Shown: positions 26,683-35,023 of the stretch, piece by piece | Layout of the letters: each line of letters opens with the position of its first letter | Position numbering within the stretch: position 1 is the first letter of the stretch | From: Ignavibacteriota bacterium | GTDB taxonomy: Bacteria; Bacteroidota; Ignavibacteria; UBA10030; SZUA-254 | DNA: 64,000 nt | Assembly: GCA_025358305.1 (NCBI GenBank) | Contig: JANYJZ010000030.1 | Span: 1 to 64,000 of the forward strand | Direction of reading: 5' to 3' | The notes under the pieces: model-generated | The model's database searches: none | Told to the model about the DNA's origin: nothing | Seen by the model: the letters and a program-made list of their open reading frames with translations, nothing else | Translations under genes and position numbers: made by a program

Positions 26683-28146
26683 ATGAACAACAGTGGATCG
26701 GCTTTGAAGAACTTTATCGGCGGAGCGCTTACCGCCTCATCTGCGGCTGTGTCCATTCCCGTCATGGACCCTTCAACCGGGAAGGAGATCGCCTCGGTCC
26801 CGCTTTCATCCGCGAAGGACGTCGATGCCGCGGTCCGCGCCGCCCGCGCGGCGTTCGGCTCCTGGTCGGCAACACCCATCAAGGAACGCGCGCAGGTCTT
26901 CTTTCGATACAAAACGCTGATGGAGAAGCACGCCCAGGAACTCGCCGCGCTTGTGCAGCAAGAGAACGGCAAAATGCTCGGCGAGGCGATGGCGGAAGTG
27001 GAAAAATCGATCGAGGTGACGGAGTTTGCCTGTTCAATGCCGCAGCTCACCGCCGGAGAGATCCTCGAGGTGAGCCGGGGAGTCGAATGCCGCATCGACC
27101 GATACCCCTTGGGCGTCGTGGCCTGCATTACACCCTTCAATTTTCCCAACATGGTCCCGAATTGGACGATCCCGAACGCGCTTGTCCTCGGCAACGTCAT
27201 GATCCTGAAGCCCTCCGAGCTCGTGCCCTTGAGCTCCATGCGACTCGCTGCGCTCCTCAAGGAAGCCGGACTTCCTGACGGCGTCTTCAACGTCGTCCAC
27301 GGCGCGCAGGAGGTCGTTGAGGCGCTCTGCGACCATCCCGGCATCGAGGCCCTGTCGTTCGTCGGGTCGACGCGGGTGGCAAAACTCGTCTACGCGAGGG
27401 CGACTTCGCACTTCAAACGCGCACTCTGCCTCGGCGGCGCAAAGAACCATCTCATCGTCCTCCCGGACGCCCACGAGCAGATGACGGCGTCGAACGTCGC
27501 CGCGTCCATGAGCGGCTGCGCCGGCCAACGGTGCATGGCGGCATCCGCGATGGTCGCGGTCGGGAACGTCGACCACATCATCAAGCGCCTCTGCGACGAG
27601 GCGCGCATGATCGTGCCCGGCAAGAATCTTGGCGCGGTCATCTCGCAGCAGGCGAAGGAGCGCATCGAGCGCTACATCACGGAGGCCGAGCGCGACGGCG
27701 CGACGATCCTCGTCGACGGGAGGCATGCCGTCGTCGCGGGAAAAGAAGGCGGATACTATGTCGGGCCGACCGTCATCGACAATGTCCGGCCGGAAATGAA
27801 GATCGCCCGCGAAGAGGTCTTCGGACCCGTCCTGGCCATCATGCGCGCGGGCACGGTCGACGACGCGCTGAAGATCGAGAACGCGAACCCGTACGGCAAC
27901 GCCGCATCGGTGTTCACTCAGAGCGGCTCCATGGCACGGTACGTCGCGGAGCGTGCGAGCGCCGGCATGATCGGGATCAATATTGGCGTCCCCGTCCCGC
28001 GTGAGCCGTTCTCCTTCGGCGGATGGAACGATTCCAAGTTCGGCGCCGGCGACATCACGGGAAAGAGCTCCATCGAGTTCTTCAGTAAACCGAAGAAGAC
28101 CACGATAAAGTGGAACCCCGAGTCCAAGGTCAACTGGATGAGCTGA
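26683..28146 (+). CDS. mmsA: (Methyl)malonate-semialdehyde dehydrogenase, CoA-acylating
   Basis: 487 aa aldehyde dehydrogenase of the MmsA/IolA group. Features: N-terminal NFIGGALT; the NAD site with PFNFPNMVPNWTIPNAL, the MMSDH-typical wording around residue 155; the SFVGSTRVAK Rossmann turn; and the catalytic Cys in GCAGQRCMAAS (about residue 284). MmsA enzymes form acyl-CoA, so here it should turn malonate semialdehyde into acetyl-CoA and CO2, and methylmalonate semialdehyde (from thymine) into propionyl-CoA. I chose the ATG at 26683; the GTG at 26647 adds twelve residues without a better ribosome site. It leads the unit mmsA, preT, preA, DinB-like. Confidence 0.93.
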   Translation: MNNSGSALKNFIGGALTASSAAVSIPVMDPSTGKEIASVPLSSAKDVDAAVRAARAAFGSWSATPIKERAQVFFRYKTLMEKHAQELAALVQQENGKMLGEAMAEVEKSIEVTEFACSMPQLTAGEILEVSRGVECRIDRYPLGVVACITPFNFPNMVPNWTIPNALVLGNVMILKPSELVPLSSMRLAALLKEAGLPDGVFNVVHGAQEVVEALCDHPGIEALSFVGSTRVAKLVYARATSHFKRALCLGGAKNHLIVLPDAHEQMTASNVAASMSGCAGQRCMAASAMVAVGNVDHIIKRLCDEARMIVPGKNLGAVISQQAKERIERYITEAERDGATILVDGRHAVVAGKEGGYYVGPTVIDNVRPEMKIAREEVFGPVLAIMRAGTVDDALKIENANPYGNAASVFTQSGSMARYVAERASAGMIGINIGVPVPREPFSFGGWNDSKFGAGDITGKSSIEFFSKPKKTTIKWNPESKVNWMS

Positions 28147-28210
28147 CGGGCCGACGGCCCGGACGACATCACAGACACGTCAGAACCAACCACCACGAGC
28201 GCACCCAGGC

Positions 28211-29557
28211 ATGAAGAATATCGCTGTAAAACTGGCTCCGGAACAGTATGAGGAGAACTTCGCGGAGCTCCATCCCGCGTTCACGAAGAACCAGGCGACG
28301 GCGGAAGCGAACCGCTGCCTGTTCTGTTTCGATTCGCCCTGCATGAACGCCTGTCCGACGCACATCGACATCGCGACCTTCATCAAGAAGATCGCCACGG
28401 GAAACGTCCGCGGATCGGCGAAGACGATCCTTGAATCGAACTGGATCGCGCTCACCTGCGCGAAGGCCTGTCCGGTGGACGAGCTGTGCGAAGGGGCCTG
28501 CGTCTACAACGAGCGGGGCGAGAAGCCGATCGAGATCGGACGTCTCCAGCGCTACGCGATCGACCGCTACTTCGAACAGGGCATGCCCAAGCTCTTCACC
28601 CCCGCGCCGCGCAACGGCAGATCTGTCGGCATCGTCGGGGGAGGGCCTTCGGGACTCGCCTGCGCGGCCGAGCTCGCGCTTCTGGGATACGAGGTGACGG
28701 TCTACGAAGGGAAGGCCACCGCGGGCGGCCTCGATACGTGGGGCATCGCGCCCTATAAAATGCGGTTCCAGGACAGCCTCAACGAGATCAAGCTCGTGGA
28801 GAGTTTCGGCGTCACCATCAAAACGAACACGAAGGTCGGGAGGGACGTCTCCCTCGCCGACCTCGAACGCCGGCACCATGCGCTCTTCCTCGGCGTCGGA
28901 CTCGGACAGTCGCCTGACCTGCGAATCCCGGGCGAGGACCTAACCGGCGTTGTGGACGCGCTCGATTTCATCGAACGGGTGACCACGCGCAAATGGAGTG
29001 CCGTCGACGTCGGCAAGCGCGTCGCCGTGATCGGCGCTGGCAATACCGCCATCGACGCCGTCACCGAAGCGAAACGCCTCGGCGCGGAGCAGGTCATGAT
29101 CATCTACCGCCGGAGCGCCCAGGAGATGTCGGCGTACGATTTTGAGTTCGAACTTGCCAAAAGCGACAGCGTGCAGTTCCATTTTCTCACCGCACCGACG
29201 AGGATCATCGGGAACGGCGCGGTCGAGGCCTTGGAGTGCATCCGCATGACGCTCGGCGCTCCCGACGCCAAGGGAAAGAAGACGCCGAAACCGGTCCCGG
29301 GCTCGGAATTCACGCTCCCGGTCGACATGGTCATCAAGGCCATCGGCCAAAAGACGAGCGACGCCTTCCTCTCGCAGATCAGCGCGCTGAAAATGGAGAA
29401 CGGCAAGGTGGCGGTCAACCCCGTGACGCACCAGAGTTCCAATCCGAAATATTTCGCCGGAGGAGACTGCATCAACGGCGGCAAAGAGGTCGTCAATGCC
29501 GCCGCCGACGGCAAGCGTGCCGCGCGCGGCATCGACGCGTACCTCTCTTCGCGATAA
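28211..29557 (+). CDS. preT: NAD-dependent dihydropyrimidine dehydrogenase, PreT-type subunit
   Basis: 448 aa flavoprotein related to the small subunit of glutamate synthase. The N-terminal domain carries Cys for two 4Fe-4S clusters (CLFCFDSPCMNACP and CAKACPVDELCEGAC). The FAD-binding GIVGGGPSGLACA lies near residue 139 and the NADH-binding VIGAGNTAIDAV near 276. PreT passes electrons from NADH to PreA for reduction of uracil or thymine to the dihydro form. I prefer PreT to GltD because preA follows 32 bases later and no glutamate synthase large subunit is present. Inferred cytoplasmic. The 64-nt gap after mmsA has no promoter I can see, so the genes are probably cotranscribed. Confidence 0.92.
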   Translation: MKNIAVKLAPEQYEENFAELHPAFTKNQATAEANRCLFCFDSPCMNACPTHIDIATFIKKIATGNVRGSAKTILESNWIALTCAKACPVDELCEGACVYNERGEKPIEIGRLQRYAIDRYFEQGMPKLFTPAPRNGRSVGIVGGGPSGLACAAELALLGYEVTVYEGKATAGGLDTWGIAPYKMRFQDSLNEIKLVESFGVTIKTNTKVGRDVSLADLERRHHALFLGVGLGQSPDLRIPGEDLTGVVDALDFIERVTTRKWSAVDVGKRVAVIGAGNTAIDAVTEAKRLGAEQVMIIYRRSAQEMSAYDFEFELAKSDSVQFHFLTAPTRIIGNGAVEALECIRMTLGAPDAKGKKTPKPVPGSEFTLPVDMVIKAIGQKTSDAFLSQISALKMENGKVAVNPVTHQSSNPKYFAGGDCINGGKEVVNAAADGKRAARGIDAYLSSR

Positions 29558-29589
29558 TCTCGAACAGCACACCCTAAGGATAACGCATC

Positions 29590-30900
29590 ATGGCAGATCT
29601 TTCCATTAATTGCGCAGGCATACGGTCCCCGAACCCCTTCTGGCTTGCGTCGGCTCCTCCCTCCAACTCCGGGTACCAGGTCTGCAAAGCCTTTGAAGCC
29701 GGTTGGGGCGGGGCTGTGTGGAAGACGATCGGCGAACCTGTCATGAACGTCTACAACCGCTACGGAGCGATCGATCTCAACGGCCAAAAGGTCATCGGCC
29801 TCAACAACATCGAGCTCATCAGCGACCGGCCGATCGAGGTCAACCTCAAGGAGATCGCTGAAACGAAACGGCTGTGGCCGGAGCGTGCCGTCATCGCGTC
29901 CCTCATGGTCGAATCAAAGCGCGAGACCTGGCACGACATCGTGAAACGTACCATCGACACCGGCTGCGACGGTATCGAACTCAACTACGGCTGCCCCCAC
30001 GGTATGAGCGAGCGGGGCATGGGATCCGCCGTCGGCCAGGTCCCGGAATACTGCGCGATGATCACCGAATGGGTCACAGAGATCTCCACCATCCCCGTGC
30101 TCGTGAAGCTCACGCCGAACATCGCCGATATCCGTTTCCCCGCCCGCGCCGCGAAGAAGGGGAAAGCGCACGGCATCTCGCTCATCAATACGATCAACAG
30201 CATCGTGGGGATCAATCTCGACAACATGGAACTCCGGCCTTCCATCGGCGGCAAAGGCGGTCACGGCGGATACGCCGGGCCGGCGGTCAAGCCGATCGCC
30301 CTCAACATGGTCTCGCAGGTCGCCATGGACCCCGAAGTGAACCTCCCGATCTCCGGCATCGGCGGCGTCTCCACATGGCGGGACGCGGCAGAGTTCATCC
30401 TCCTCGGCGCGACGAGCGTCCAGGTCTGTACGGCCGTCATGCATTACGGATTCCGGATCATCGAGGACCTCAACGAGGGCCTCTCCAACTGGATGGATGA
30501 AAAGGGTTTCCGCACGATCGAGGACTTCCGCGGCAAGACGCTCTCCTGCATCACGGATTTCGGGAACCTCAACCTCCTCGCACGGACGATCGCGGAGATC
30601 GACGAGTCGAAATGCATTCAGTGCAACCTGTGCTACATCGCCTGCGAGGACACCGCGCACCAGTGCATCGACATGGTCCCGGTGAACGCCAAGAAGCAGC
30701 CCAGGGTCCGCGCGGAGGACTGCGTCGGCTGCGCGCTCTGTTTCCTGGTCTGCCCGGTGGAGAGCTGCATCTCCATGGTGCGCAAGGACGACGGCTCGGT
30801 CTCCGTAACGTGGAACGAGCTCATGAAGCAGCTTCCCCAGCCGGTCACCTGGGAAAGCCTCCGGCAGTTCCAGAAGAAACACGGCATTGACATTCATTGA
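29590..30900 (+). CDS. preA: NAD-dependent dihydropyrimidine dehydrogenase, PreA-type subunit
   Basis: 436 aa. Residues 1-330 are a class 1B dihydroorotate-dehydrogenase-like FMN barrel: NPFWLASAPPSNSG at the N-terminus, the ELNYGCPHGMSERGMG active-site loop with the Cys typical of DPD, and SGIGGVSTWRDAAEFILLGA as the FMN phosphate site. The C-terminal ferredoxin domain has two 4Fe-4S motifs, CIQCNLCYIAC and CVGCALCFLVCP. It reduces uracil/thymine with electrons from PreT, the first step of the reductive pathway. AAGGA precedes the ATG. Partner of the gene just upstream. Confidence 0.95.
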   Translation: MADLSINCAGIRSPNPFWLASAPPSNSGYQVCKAFEAGWGGAVWKTIGEPVMNVYNRYGAIDLNGQKVIGLNNIELISDRPIEVNLKEIAETKRLWPERAVIASLMVESKRETWHDIVKRTIDTGCDGIELNYGCPHGMSERGMGSAVGQVPEYCAMITEWVTEISTIPVLVKLTPNIADIRFPARAAKKGKAHGISLINTINSIVGINLDNMELRPSIGGKGGHGGYAGPAVKPIALNMVSQVAMDPEVNLPISGIGGVSTWRDAAEFILLGATSVQVCTAVMHYGFRIIEDLNEGLSNWMDEKGFRTIEDFRGKTLSCITDFGNLNLLARTIAEIDESKCIQCNLCYIACEDTAHQCIDMVPVNAKKQPRVRAEDCVGCALCFLVCPVESCISMVRKDDGSVSVTWNELMKQLPQPVTWESLRQFQKKHGIDIH

Positions 30901-30949
30901 CGCCGCGCAAGCGGGCTATCACTCACTCATATTCTAGAAAGGATCAGAT

Positions 30950-31438
30950 ATGTCAGAAAAAGAAATGTTCATCCAGCGCTGGGAACGCGAGTTCCAGACG
31001 ACCATGAAGGTCCTCAAGGCCTACCCGGCCGGGAAGGACAACCTTCAGCCGCACGCCAAGTGCCCCAACGCGAAGGACCTTGCGTGGCGCATTGCACTCG
31101 AAGAACCGCTCTTCGTCAACGGCGCCCTGACCGGCACGTTCGACTTCGCGACGATGGTACCGGCTCCCGGCACGATGGGAGAGGTCATCGCGAGCTACGA
31201 ACGGAACCACGGCGCGCTCGTCGACAAGATCAAAAAAGCGTCCGATGCGGACTTCCAGAAGCTCATCAAGTTCTTCGTTGCGCCGAAGACGATGGGCGAT
31301 ATCCGGAGCGCGGACGCACTTTGGACGATGCTCAACGATTCGATCCACCATCGCGGGCAGTTCTCGATCTACCTCCGGATGGCCGACGGAAAGGTCCCTT
31401 CCATCTACGGACCTTCCGGCGACGAACCCTGGATGTAA
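30950..31438 (+). CDS. DinB-like protein
   Basis: 162 aa four-helix-bundle protein of the DinB/YfiT type. The C-terminal signature SIHHRGQFSIYLRMAD with the trailing PSIYGPSGDE is typical. In most relatives the first helix-pair motif reads LAWHI with a metal-binding His. Here it is LAWRIALEEP, so one expected metal ligand seems replaced by Arg, and the protein may bind no metal or bind it differently. It lies 49 nt after preA with AAAGGA before its ATG, and is the last gene before the terminator at 31461-31501. Function unknown; some relatives are thiol transferases or stress proteins. Why it travels with preTA is not evident. Confidence 0.8.
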   Translation: MSEKEMFIQRWEREFQTTMKVLKAYPAGKDNLQPHAKCPNAKDLAWRIALEEPLFVNGALTGTFDFATMVPAPGTMGEVIASYERNHGALVDKIKKASDADFQKLIKFFVAPKTMGDIRSADALWTMLNDSIHHRGQFSIYLRMADGKVPSIYGPSGDEPWM

Positions 31439-31460
31439 CCTGCCGCGACGCAGTTCCCCC

Positions 31461-31501
31461 GAAACCCCGGCGGTCTTCATTGACATTATCGCCGGGGTTT
31501 C
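31461..31501 (+). terminator. Perfect 12-bp hairpin ending the preTA unit; contains the next promoter
   Basis: GAAACCCCGGCG (31461-31472) and CGCCGGGGTTTC (31490-31501) form a perfect stem with a 17-base loop, followed by CTATTTTG. It starts 22 bases after the DinB-like stop codon. The loop carries the -35 of the following operon. Confidence 0.85.
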
Positions 31502-31508
31502 CTATTTT
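31480..31508 (+). promoter_or_regulatory. Promoter of the Smr-dihydropyrimidinase operon, nested in the terminator
   Basis: -35 TTGACA (31480-31485) lies in the terminator loop. The 17-base spacer is made mostly of the 3' stem arm. The -10 TATTTT (31503-31508) doubles as the short T run. Both boxes are close to consensus. Confidence 0.7.
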
Positions 31509-31545
31509 GAGTCGAAGAGACCGTCACTCGAGAGAGGTTCGCCGT

Positions 31546-31887
31546 TTGTCGTGCATGAAGACCGTCAACATCGCCCATCCCCCGCTCTCGGGCGCCTCCG
31601 CGGAAGAGCTGCTTGATGAGTCATTGCGGAGCATCCGAGGCTCGTCCTCTCTGCGCATCCTCAAAATCATCCACGGGTACGGCAGCACTGGGAAAGGCGG
31701 CACACTGAGGACCATCGTCCGGAACTGGTGCTACAAGAAAAGTGCGCAGGTACGTTCCGTGCTTCCGGGCGAGGACGCCTCGCCGTTCGATGAACGCGCC
31801 AGGGAGATCGCCGCAGCATGCGGCATTTCGGTCACGGACGAACTCGGGCCGCCCAACGACGGCATGACGATCGTCTGGGTGAAGTAG
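31546..31887 (+). CDS. Small stand-alone Smr-domain protein
   Basis: About 110 aa. The Smr (MutS2 C-terminal) fold is shown by ESLRSIRGSSSLRILKIIHG followed by YGSTGKGGTLRTIVRNW, the usual loop of Smr nicking or binding domains; the tail ends GMTIVWVK. Two starts are possible. TTG at 31546 has GAGAGG eight bases before it and gives 113 aa. ATG at 31555 gives 110 aa but lies farther from the ribosome site. Stand-alone Smr proteins act on branched nucleic acids or in ribosome rescue; the role here is not known. It is the first gene after the nested promoter and lies 29 nt before the dihydropyrimidinase gene. Confidence 0.75.
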   Translation: MSCMKTVNIAHPPLSGASAEELLDESLRSIRGSSSLRILKIIHGYGSTGKGGTLRTIVRNWCYKKSAQVRSVLPGEDASPFDERAREIAAACGISVTDELGPPNDGMTIVWVK

Positions 31888-31916
31888 ATTCGTATTCCAC
31901 ACACGAAGGAGTTAAC

Positions 31917-33302
31917 ATGTCCACACTGATCAAGAACGGCCGGATCGTCACCGCAGACCAGGACTATACCGCAGACATCTATATCGAGCGCGACACCATC
32001 ACGAACATCGGCGGCGCCCTGCCGCAAGTGGCCGATACCGTCATCGACGCGAAGGGCAAGTACGTCATTCCGGGGGGCATCGACGTCCACACGCACATGG
32101 ATATGCCGTTCGGGGGGACGACCTCGAGCGACGATTTTGAAACGGGAACGCGAGCCGCGGCGTTTGGCGGCACGACCTGCCTCATCGACTTCGCCATCCA
32201 GACGAAGGGCCAGAAGATCCGCGAGGCGCTCGACGTCTGGTGGAAAAAGGGGGAGAAGGCAACGGTCGATTACTCCCTCCATATGATCGTGACCGACCTC
32301 CCCGAAGCCCATCTCGAGGACCTCAACGAAATGGTGCGCGAAGGGCTCACGAGTTTCAAGCTCTTCATGGCATATCCCGGCGTTCTCATGGTGGACGACG
32401 CGACGATCTTTCGCGCGATGAAGCAGACTGCCGCGAACGGCGCGCTCGTCTGCATGCACGCGGAGAACGGCGGCGTCATTGACCTTTTGATCCAGAAGGC
32501 GATCGCCGAAGGGAAGAAAGCGCCGATCTATCATGCCCTCACGCGGCCGACGACGGCCGAGGGCGAGGCGGTCAACCGCGCCATCGCACTCGCGGAAATG
32601 GCGGGAGCGCCCGTCTACATCGTCCACCTCTCTTCCGCCGACGCGCTCGAGAAGGTCTCCGAAGCGCGCGACCGGGGCATCCCCGCGTTCGCCGAGACCT
32701 GCCCCCAATACCTCCTTCTCTCGATCGAGGACCTCGACCGGCCGAACTTTGAAGGCGCGAAATACGTCTTCACGCCTCCCTTGCGTGAGAAATGGCATCA
32801 GGACAAGCTCTGGGCGGGACTCAAGAAGAACACTCTTCAGGTCGTCTCCACCGACCATTGTCCATTCTGCTTCAAGGAACAAAAGGAACTCGGCCGTGAT
32901 AGCTTTGCGAAGATTCCGAACGGCGGCCCGGGCGTCGAGAACCGGCTCCAGCTGCTTTTCCACCACGGCGTGAACATGAAACGGATCTCCCTCAACCGCT
33001 GGGTGGAGATCGTCTCCACCGCCCCCGCGAAGATGTTCGGGCTCTACCCCCGGAAGGGCACGATCAGCATCGGAAGCGATGCTGATCTCGTGATCTGGGA
33101 CCCGAATGCGGAGCTCACCATCTCCGCGCACACGCATCATATGCGGGTCGACTACTCGATGTTCGAGGGGTTCAAGGTGAAAGGGAACGCGGAGATTGTC
33201 CTGTCGCGCGGCGATATCGTCGTCAACAAGGGTGTTTGGAACGGCAAGGCGGGCCGCGGGCATTTCATCAAACGCGACACGTTCGCTGGGGCCTGGCGGT
33301 AG
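31917..33302 (+). CDS. hydA: Dihydropyrimidinase
   Basis: 461 aa amidohydrolase-superfamily enzyme that opens 5,6-dihydrouracil or dihydrothymine to the N-carbamoyl-beta-amino acid. Metal ligands are readable: DVHTHMD (His-x-His near residue 60), the carboxylated Lys in TSFKLFMAYPG (about 150), His in VHLSSADAL, and Asp in VSTDHCPF (about 318). ENRLQLLFHHGV and the final STAPAKMFGLYPRKG are usual for the family. The start at 31917 has AAGGAG six bases before it. It is part of a tight operon: the next gene starts at the base after its stop codon. Substrate comes from PreTA and product goes to the enzyme at 15655-16530. Confidence 0.95.
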   Translation: MSTLIKNGRIVTADQDYTADIYIERDTITNIGGALPQVADTVIDAKGKYVIPGGIDVHTHMDMPFGGTTSSDDFETGTRAAAFGGTTCLIDFAIQTKGQKIREALDVWWKKGEKATVDYSLHMIVTDLPEAHLEDLNEMVREGLTSFKLFMAYPGVLMVDDATIFRAMKQTAANGALVCMHAENGGVIDLLIQKAIAEGKKAPIYHALTRPTTAEGEAVNRAIALAEMAGAPVYIVHLSSADALEKVSEARDRGIPAFAETCPQYLLLSIEDLDRPNFEGAKYVFTPPLREKWHQDKLWAGLKKNTLQVVSTDHCPFCFKEQKELGRDSFAKIPNGGPGVENRLQLLFHHGVNMKRISLNRWVEIVSTAPAKMFGLYPRKGTISIGSDADLVIWDPNAELTISAHTHHMRVDYSMFEGFKVKGNAEIVLSRGDIVVNKGVWNGKAGRGHFIKRDTFAGAWR

Positions 33303-33614
33303 ATGATGACTGCCGTGAAGATATTTCTCGCAGGCGTGCTCCTCCTCACCATTGCCGTAGCGGCGGGACAAAAGCACGAGACCGTGCCGCCGCCGCTGGT
33401 CGCTCCGCGGTACTCGTACCGGGGTAACATCCTGCCGATCCTCCAGGCAAAATGCCAGCCGTGCCATTTTGAAGGAGGCAAGGTCTTCGCAAAGCTTCCG
33501 TTCAACGACTCGACCGTTGTCGCGAAACTCGGAAAACGGCTTAACACCCGGCTGAAGGACTCGACCGATCAGGCGGTCATCCTCTCCTGGAGTGCGCACG
33601 CAGGTGCGAAGTAG
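33303..33614 (+). CDS. Small exported protein with one c-type haem motif
   Basis: 103 aa. Signal peptide MMTAVKIFLAGVLLLTIAVA (then AGQ). The mature part has ILPILQAKCQPCHFEGGK, where CQPCH is a single CxxCH haem c site in the setting usual for Planctomycete-type cytochrome domains that open with a similar ILxxxCxxCH. No clear Met sixth ligand follows. It is probably a periplasmic or lipid-exposed single-haem protein, or an anchor fragment. There is no spacing from hydA: ATG follows TAG directly, so translation is probably coupled. The functional link with pyrimidine breakdown is not evident. No other cytochrome gene is in the window. Confidence 0.75.
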   Translation: MMTAVKIFLAGVLLLTIAVAAGQKHETVPPPLVAPRYSYRGNILPILQAKCQPCHFEGGKVFAKLPFNDSTVVAKLGKRLNTRLKDSTDQAVILSWSAHAGAK

Positions 33615-33615
33615 C

Positions 33616-34317
33616 ATGACCAATCCGAACGCCATACCGACCGAGCGCGCCGCGCGTCACTTCCAGCGCTCCCTCATCCGGACCATGGCAGCATTGCTGT
33701 TGTTCTCGGTTCTCGCCGGCGCCCAGCCAGCGCACGATCCGCATGCCCGGCCGAGCGAACTCGTCGAGATCACTCGCATCGACTCAACGATCAAACTTGA
33801 CATCCGGTACGCCACCTCCCAGAACTTCATGAAGCGCCCGATGTATACCGAGCCGCGGGCGTTCCTCCAGAAGCCGGCTGCTGAAGCGCTCATGCACGTC
33901 CAGCGCGCGCTGAGGGCGAGAGGATTCGGCCTCATCGTATTTGACGGATACCGACCGTGGTCCGTCACGAAGGAGTTCTGGGACGAGACGCCGGCCGACA
34001 AGCACGGCTTCGTCGCCGACCCCAAGCAGGGATCGAAACACAACCGGGGATGCGCCGTGGACCTCTCCCTCATCAATCTCAAGAACGGGAAGGAGATCGT
34101 CATGACGAGCCCGTATGACGACTTTACGGAGAAGGCGTCTCCCGGGTACCGCGGCGGAAGCCGGACGCAGCGACGGCTCCGTGATATGCTCCGCTCGGCG
34201 ATGGAGAAGGAGGGCTTCGCCGTCGACAAGGGCGAGTGGTGGCACTTCGATTACAAGGACTGGCGCTCCTACGACGTACTGGATATCCCGTTCAACCAGG
34301 TCCAAACGCAGCAGTGA
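33616..34317 (+). CDS. D-Ala-D-Ala dipeptidase (VanX/DdpX family)
   Basis: 233 aa zinc dipeptidase of peptidase family M15D, exported by an N-terminal hydrophobic segment (MAALLLFSVLAGAQ, about residues 20-34). Catalytic elements are readable: GYRPWSV; SKHNRGCAVDL with the His and Asp zinc ligands; and GEWWHFDY with the general-base Glu and third zinc ligand His. The likely role is turnover of D-Ala-D-Ala or other D-dipeptides in the periplasm, as for DdpX and ordinary VanX-like enzymes. There is no vanHA or vanRS nearby, so vancomycin resistance is not implied. It begins one base after the cytochrome stop and overlaps the next gene start (GTGA). Confidence 0.9.
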   Translation: MTNPNAIPTERAARHFQRSLIRTMAALLLFSVLAGAQPAHDPHARPSELVEITRIDSTIKLDIRYATSQNFMKRPMYTEPRAFLQKPAAEALMHVQRALRARGFGLIVFDGYRPWSVTKEFWDETPADKHGFVADPKQGSKHNRGCAVDLSLINLKNGKEIVMTSPYDDFTEKASPGYRGGSRTQRRLRDMLRSAMEKEGFAVDKGEWWHFDYKDWRSYDVLDIPFNQVQTQQ

Positions 34318-34913
34318 AATTCCCGTTGCCCCGACAGGATGAGACCGACCCGGTAGTCCGGTGGACGTTATTGGGGCTCCGTTGCGCGGTCTACCTCTGG
34401 CTCACCTATTTCTTCGTCCAGGCGGTCACGACCTTTTCATCCTACACCCCCGGACAGCCCTGGCCATTCCTCCTGAGCATGGTGCGCATGTGGACGTTCC
34501 TGCCGATCCACGAAGCGGGGCATCTCTTCTTGCGCCCGTTCGGCACCGTCGTCATGTTCCTCGGCGGATCGATCTTTCAGGTACTCCTTCCGTTGCTCTG
34601 GTTCCTCCTCGCCCTCCATCAACGTTCCGCCGTGGCCCCCTTCCCCCTCTTTTGGGTCGGGGAGAATCTCATGGATGTGAGTCTCTACATCCGCGACACG
34701 ACCCTGCGCCAGCTTCCCCTCCTCGGGGGACACAAGTCGGGGCACGATTGGTTCAACATCCTCTCGCGCTGGGACATGCTCTCCTCCGCCGAGTCGATCG
34801 CCGACGTCACGTACATCATCGGCATCATGATCAGCGTCTCGGCGATCGTGGCAGGCTGCGCGCTCGCCGTCAACAGTTTCCGCCATCCCCCCGCGCCGAC
34901 GCTCGAGGAATGA
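34314..34913 (+). CDS. Membrane protein with HEAGH motif, M50-like
   Basis: 199 aa with about five hydrophobic segments. FLPIHEAGHLFLRPFG, near residue 62, is an HExxH zinc motif embedded at the start of a membrane helix, as in site-2-type intramembrane proteases. A later conserved-looking GGHKSGHDWFNILSRW could supply the third ligand, but the classic NxxPxxxxDG motif of S2P is absent. It is therefore an M50-like protein rather than a proven protease. The start is GTG at 34314, overlapping the dipeptidase TGA (GTGA), so coupled translation is likely. It is the last gene of the Smr-hydA-cytochrome-dipeptidase operon, before the terminator at 34966-34996. Confidence 0.65.
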   Translation: MKFPLPRQDETDPVVRWTLLGLRCAVYLWLTYFFVQAVTTFSSYTPGQPWPFLLSMVRMWTFLPIHEAGHLFLRPFGTVVMFLGGSIFQVLLPLLWFLLALHQRSAVAPFPLFWVGENLMDVSLYIRDTTLRQLPLLGGHKSGHDWFNILSRWDMLSSAESIADVTYIIGIMISVSAIVAGCALAVNSFRHPPAPTLEE

Positions 34914-34926
34914 CCCCGCCCACTAC

Positions 34927-34955
34927 TTGCAACTTGGCCTCTAATATAGTACCAT
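34927..34955 (+). promoter_or_regulatory. Candidate promoter just upstream of a terminator
   Basis: -35 TTGCAA (34927-34932), 17-base spacer, -10 TACCAT (34950-34955). A transcript from here would meet the hairpin at 34966 almost at once. Confidence 0.35.
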
Positions 34956-34965
34956 AGAACTCGTT

Positions 34966-34996
34966 GCGAGGAAGACAGACCTCGCCTTTCTTTTTT
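34966..34996 (+). terminator. Intrinsic terminator before the TPR membrane protein gene
   Basis: GCGAGG (34966-34971) and CCTCGC (34980-34985) form a six-base stem followed by CTTTCTTTTTT ending at 34996. It may end the hydA operon, act as an attenuator for the next gene, or both. Confidence 0.65.
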
Positions 34997-35023
34997 CGAG
35001 GACGCACTAGCAGGGATCATTGG

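Follow-up and report, generated by a model that had tools for sequence, protein, structure and literature searches.

Positions 31461-31508 of the window, the 64,000-nt stretch of an Ignavibacteriota contig analysed here, probably hold an intrinsic terminator fused to a sigma-A-type promoter, the two signals sharing bases. The initial annotation had proposed that a single element ends one transcription unit and starts the next, and this proposal is supported by the position and sequence of the element relative to the native signals of the genome, as well as by an orthologous element in a relative from another genus (genome G006). Termination, initiation and any coupling between them are what I infer from the sequence.

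According to the proposed mechanism, RNA made from the preTA-dinB side would fold into a GC-rich hairpin 22 nt past the dinB stop codon, and this hairpin, together with the UUUCCUAUUUU tract that follows it, would lead to RNA release near 31508. The same DNA, acting as a TTGACA-N17-TATTTT promoter, would set a transcription start near 31515, the resulting transcript reading smr and the dihydropyrimidinase gene. Because the start of the nested promoter lies past the hairpin, the latter would form only in the upstream transcript. Going by the typical geometry of terminators and promoters, a terminating polymerase would halt no more than about 10 nt away from the next start, and polymerase sitting on the promoter might entail either a brief block or a favoured restart.

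Architecture of the element

All the features described hereafter lie on the forward (+) strand of the window. The 5' arm of the hairpin, GAAACCCCGGCG (31461-31472), recognised by pairing and by RNA folding, is perfectly complementary over 12 bp to the 3' arm, CGCCGGGGTTTC (31490-31501), and nine of the pairs are GC. The 17-nt loop between them, GTCTTCATTGACATTAT (31473-31489), holds TTGACA (31480-31485), a -35 hexamer of the native promoter type. At a spacing of 17 nt from it lies TATTTT (31503-31508), the predicted -10 hexamer, which would double as the T-rich tail of the terminator. A perfect 12-bp stem with TTGACA in its loop had been noticed at the outset, and is confirmed both by direct reading and by the RNA fold of 31455-31515, whose energy of -26.2 kcal/mol (z -4.4) was equalled in none of 200 shuffles. 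Two details of that first description need amending: the 3' arm, which is identical in G006, provides 12 of the 17 spacer bases and not the whole spacer, and TATTTT is separated from the end of the stem by a single base, C31502. A GUC/GAC pairing is also possible within the loop and would take up part of TTGACA. Among Rfam models, the best match to the element scored 21 bits versus a gathering score of 55, and no family was reached.

Upstream of the element are the genes for a PreT-like subunit (Fer4_20, Pyr_redox_2; 28211-29557), a PreA-like subunit (DHO_dh, Fer4_21; 29590-30900) and a DinB-family protein (30950-31438), the stop codon of the last being located 22 nt 5' of the hairpin. The dinB-smr gap measures 116 bp. 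The first gene 3' of the promoter encodes a Smr-like small protein (31555-31887), starting 46 nt past the -10 hexamer, and is followed by hyd, encoding a dihydropyrimidinase/hydantoinase (Amidohydro_1; 31917-33302). The Smr-like protein scores 24.4 bits against Pfam Smr, under the cut-off of 25.7.

Comparison with native signals

A generic sigma-70 scan of positions 28000-35000 returned TTGACA/TATTTT as its sole match, with a chance expectation of 1.5, and in generic promoter and terminator scans the match counts equalled those of shuffled sequence, which proves nothing alone. Since the generic sigma-70 scan was uninformative, the genome's own signals were used instead; they were drawn from 464 kb of stretches of the genome to which the window belongs (G000, 62% GC) and from genome-wide pattern searches. 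Gene calls were made with a simple codon-based script, which missed the short smr gene, and counts by region are approximate.

As for the promoter half, TTGAC-N18-TATNTT has 77 matches across G000 versus 3 for the reversed control, the chance share of native-pattern matches being about 4%. In the 464 kb, a close TTGAC...TATNTT variant occurs at 17 intergenic sites versus one coding site, that is, an 88-fold intergenic enrichment. Native sites have a spacer nearly fixed at 17 nt and, in most cases, are followed at 30-75 nt by a gene read in the same direction; the window promoter, 46 nt 5' of the smr ATG, is a full native match. The native pattern is present in all 15 family genomes (15/15), with 28-98 matches per genome, and the housekeeping promoter of the family appears to be TTGACW-N17-TATATT/TATCTT. 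Bacteroidota promoters are of the TTTG/TAnnTTTG type, from which the pattern of this family appears to differ. With the sigma-70/sigma-A housekeeping promoter (locally TTGACW-N17-TATNTT) the window promoter shares the boxes, the 17-nt spacing and the distance to the gene, whereas its spacer, unlike that of the usual form, is half of a perfect stem.

The terminator half was compared with a census of stems of 8 bp or more located no further than 120 nt past the stop codon of 319 called genes. Such stems follow 56 of the 319 stop codons, versus 7 of 319 in a within-gene control, and their distance past the stop codon peaks at 20-29 nt, the window hairpin lying at 22 nt. In the 12 bases past the stem the window has 6 Ts, the native mean being 5.3 and the control mean 1.7. 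The U-tract of the window is broken by a C and an A; broken T-tracts do occur in comparable native terminators, for instance the hairpin at C18 193975, with the tail CTATTGCATT. With 17 nt, the window loop is longer than any other in a set of 38 native stop-proximal hairpins. What the element has in common with intrinsic (Rho-independent) terminators is a GC-rich hairpin soon past a stop codon and, arguably, the T-rich tract behind it, and it fits the genome's own class; what sets it apart is the long 17-nt loop, the interrupted T-tract and the fact that its loop, 3' arm and tail would also serve as parts of the promoter. Taken with the promoter data, these results supply a sequence-based promoter consensus and a terminator geometry for an uncultured family of Ignavibacteria.

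It is very improbable that only one of the two functions is real, so that either the TTGACA arose by accident within a terminator or the inverted repeat did so at a promoter, the whole region being read through as one operon. The chance share of native-pattern matches given above, and the relatives in which dinB lies about 31-34 bp from smr or hyd in what looks like one operon, are consistent with such a reading, yet both parts score well against native controls and recur jointly in G006.

Deep nesting within a strong hairpin characterises 1 of the 74 G000 promoters with enough flank, that of the window only; in the next-closest case, the hairpin ends exactly at the start of the -35 hexamer. 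Nesting was further tested on 123 promoters from G000 and relatives, using as control the upstream flanks swapped between promoters in 20 rounds; the promoters of the relatives were partly picked for GC-rich spacers, which makes it a test of nesting and not a census. The nested-stem score is 36 in the window and 28 in G006, with swapped-control maxima of 19-34 across the 20 rounds, and a score of at least 28 is expected 0.15 times in the swapped control. The idea that nested promoters are a habit of the lineage was rejected, for the 123 promoters show no enrichment over the swapped control once the two hyd elements are set aside.

Terminator and promoter also meet closely at a second place in G000, on the - strand of contig C18 (30686-30743, locus L044), where a terminator-like hairpin abuts the TTGACA of the next promoter.

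The junction in related genomes

A search with the intergenic DNA returned a 35-nt match (91%) before the same hyd gene in G006. The conserved block, TCTTsATTGACATTAwCGCCGGGGTTTCCTATyTT, corresponds to 31474-31508 of the window (+ strand); allowing up to 3 mismatches, it is matched nowhere else in the order (98 genomes) or the class (391 genomes). The hyd gene of G006 is preceded by TTGACATTAACGCCGGGGTTTCCTATCTT, and the 5' arm, GGAGCCCCGGC, still pairs, with an inner stem in the longer loop and a fold z of -6.0. There, the element sits after a second dinB gene (dinB2), in a dinB2-hyd gap of about 230 nt; its 5' arm begins about 75 nt past the upstream stop codon, outside the terminator peak, its arms are separated by about 42-45 nt versus the 17-nt loop of the window, and its stem extends over the -10 hexamer.

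The conservation evidence comes from two genomes, G000 and G006. Their Hyd proteins are 79% identical; since the fourfold sites of hyd are 45% identical, neutral DNA being near saturation, conservation of the block is best explained by selection, and the overlap itself has probably been kept by selection. The spacer of the block ties for best among the listed G000/G006 promoter pairs (17/18, with a column-shuffled maximum of 15). A few other promoters are also well conserved between the two genomes, including that of an EF-P-like gene, so that spacer conservation alone is no proof of a stem. The 5' arm argues more strongly for a predicted stem: of 73 other promoters, only 1 has CCCCGGC in the 60 nt that precede it.

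The size of the gap in G006 also bears on whether the overlap has any use. A real terminator and a real promoter might overlap in the window only because the gap is short, each standing at its native distance and nothing being gained from the sharing of bases. With the hairpin 22 nt past the stop codon and the promoter 46 nt before the ATG, both native positions, the overlap is forced in a gap of 116 bp, and in the other tandem cases terminator and promoter stand side by side without overlapping, with 0, 25 and 31 nt from the end of the hairpin to the -35. However, G006 has room in its gap of about 230 nt and yet keeps the overlap, and I regard this account as decidedly unlikely.

The main rival to a fused terminator-promoter is an operator, in which a dimeric repressor bound to the half-sites GAAACCCCGGCG, flanking the -35 hexamer and within the spacer, would block the hyd promoter, the resemblance to a terminator being incidental. 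In its favour, G006 has conserved the very sequence of the spacer, and its repeat extends over the -10 hexamer and lies far from the upstream stop codon. The change in arm separation, from 17 nt in the window to about 42-45 nt in G006, is easier to reconcile with an RNA stem than with a dimeric protein, however. Nor does the distribution of the half-site favour an operator: its 11-base core, AAACCCCGGCG, recurs at four other places in G000, of which three or more fall within long reading frames, and the window contains 12 near matches, as many as chance predicts. Among these core copies and near matches, no shared operator at other co-regulated promoters was found. An operator is judged unlikely.

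Returning to the fused terminator-promoter, the alignment with sister genomes proposed in the initial annotation gave a mixed outcome as to whether stem and boxes are kept together: G006 has both, G012 the promoter only, and G010 neither. In G012, which belongs to the genus of G006, TTGACATTCAAGCCGCTGTTTCCTATCTT stands before hyd, with a different gene upstream; it was rejected as a third nested case, given that the promoter is kept but the 6-bp stem is at chance level. G010, the nearest relative by DinB (71%), retains the preT-preA-dinB-smr-hyd order, and its dinB-smr gap is unrelated in sequence, holding an imperfect heptad-repeat hairpin; the native promoter is absent from that gap. Since G010 keeps the gene order without the sequence, the element is not shared throughout the family.

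Other arrangements are found as well. In G002, smr lies 31 bp past dinB, and in G023 hyd lies about 33 bp past dinB, with no hairpin between in either genome. The view that the flanking units are separate operons finds no support in several relatives of this kind, where dinB is about 31-34 bp from smr or hyd and no hairpin intervenes. G003 and G008 (L243 and L242) share a conserved strong terminator with TATTTT in its tail, which ends about 50 nt before hyd. They were not counted as nested cases, for their loop hexamers, TTGCAT and TTGTAT, make poor -35 boxes; here too a terminator may overlap with a promoter, one whose -35 would be weak. Since the arrangements of G012, G010, G002, G023, G003 and G008 differ, the predicted passage of transcription from preTA-dinB to hyd is variable within the family.

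At L243 and L242, where the terminator lies about 90 nt 5' of hyd, a separate promoter would hardly fit. In some relatives, the gap between dinB and smr or hyd is filled by intergenic hairpins made of 7-base repeats (GGTTTGAGGTTCGAGGTTCGAGG ... CGAACC; L003 1383-1500, - strand; L014). The exact three-unit heptad pattern is present in 6 of 40 genomes (G002, G003, G010, G011, G021 and G027), with 0 control matches, and is absent from G000 and G006.

Possible coupling of consecutive pathway steps

In reductive pyrimidine degradation, step 1 is catalysed by PreTA and step 2 by dihydropyrimidinase. The element was first described as lying between two catabolic operons; two units do flank it, but they serve consecutive steps of this one pathway.

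Single-molecule work shows that polymerase, once the RNA is released, usually remains bound to the DNA, along which it diffuses, and is able to start again from a promoter close by; according to the authors, related operons that are clustered might be served by one polymerase in this way (PMC6978380). Such recycling and re-initiation after intrinsic termination have been demonstrated in vitro with the E. coli enzyme (PMC6978380; PMC6978322). The requirement for a promoter close to a terminator is common to that process and to the window element, which differs in that its predicted terminator and promoter overlap. Interference between the units, as suggested in the initial annotation, may occur; reuse of the terminated polymerase at the promoter would be at least as plausible. 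It is quite unlikely, although conceivable, that selection has favoured a zero-distance terminator-promoter as such, where the polymerase ending the preTA-dinB RNA restarts on the spot and the output of step 2 follows the traffic of step 1 without a joint mRNA. A literature search for this architecture returned nothing on point; subscription journals were mostly outside its scope, and an earlier description is possible. If functional, the overlap would offer a natural test of whether polymerase recycling couples neighbouring units in cells.

As regards the DinB-family protein, the named same-family relatives of the window copy are Ignavibacteria MAGs. Many Ignavibacteria encode, 3' of preA, a DinB-family protein that ends in a conserved GPsaDEPWM C-terminus (window 30950-31438; L007, L008, L009, L011, L014 and L018-L021), and its presence after preA suggests a role in reductive pyrimidine breakdown. 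Relatives of this protein are also present in Gemmatimonadota MAGs.
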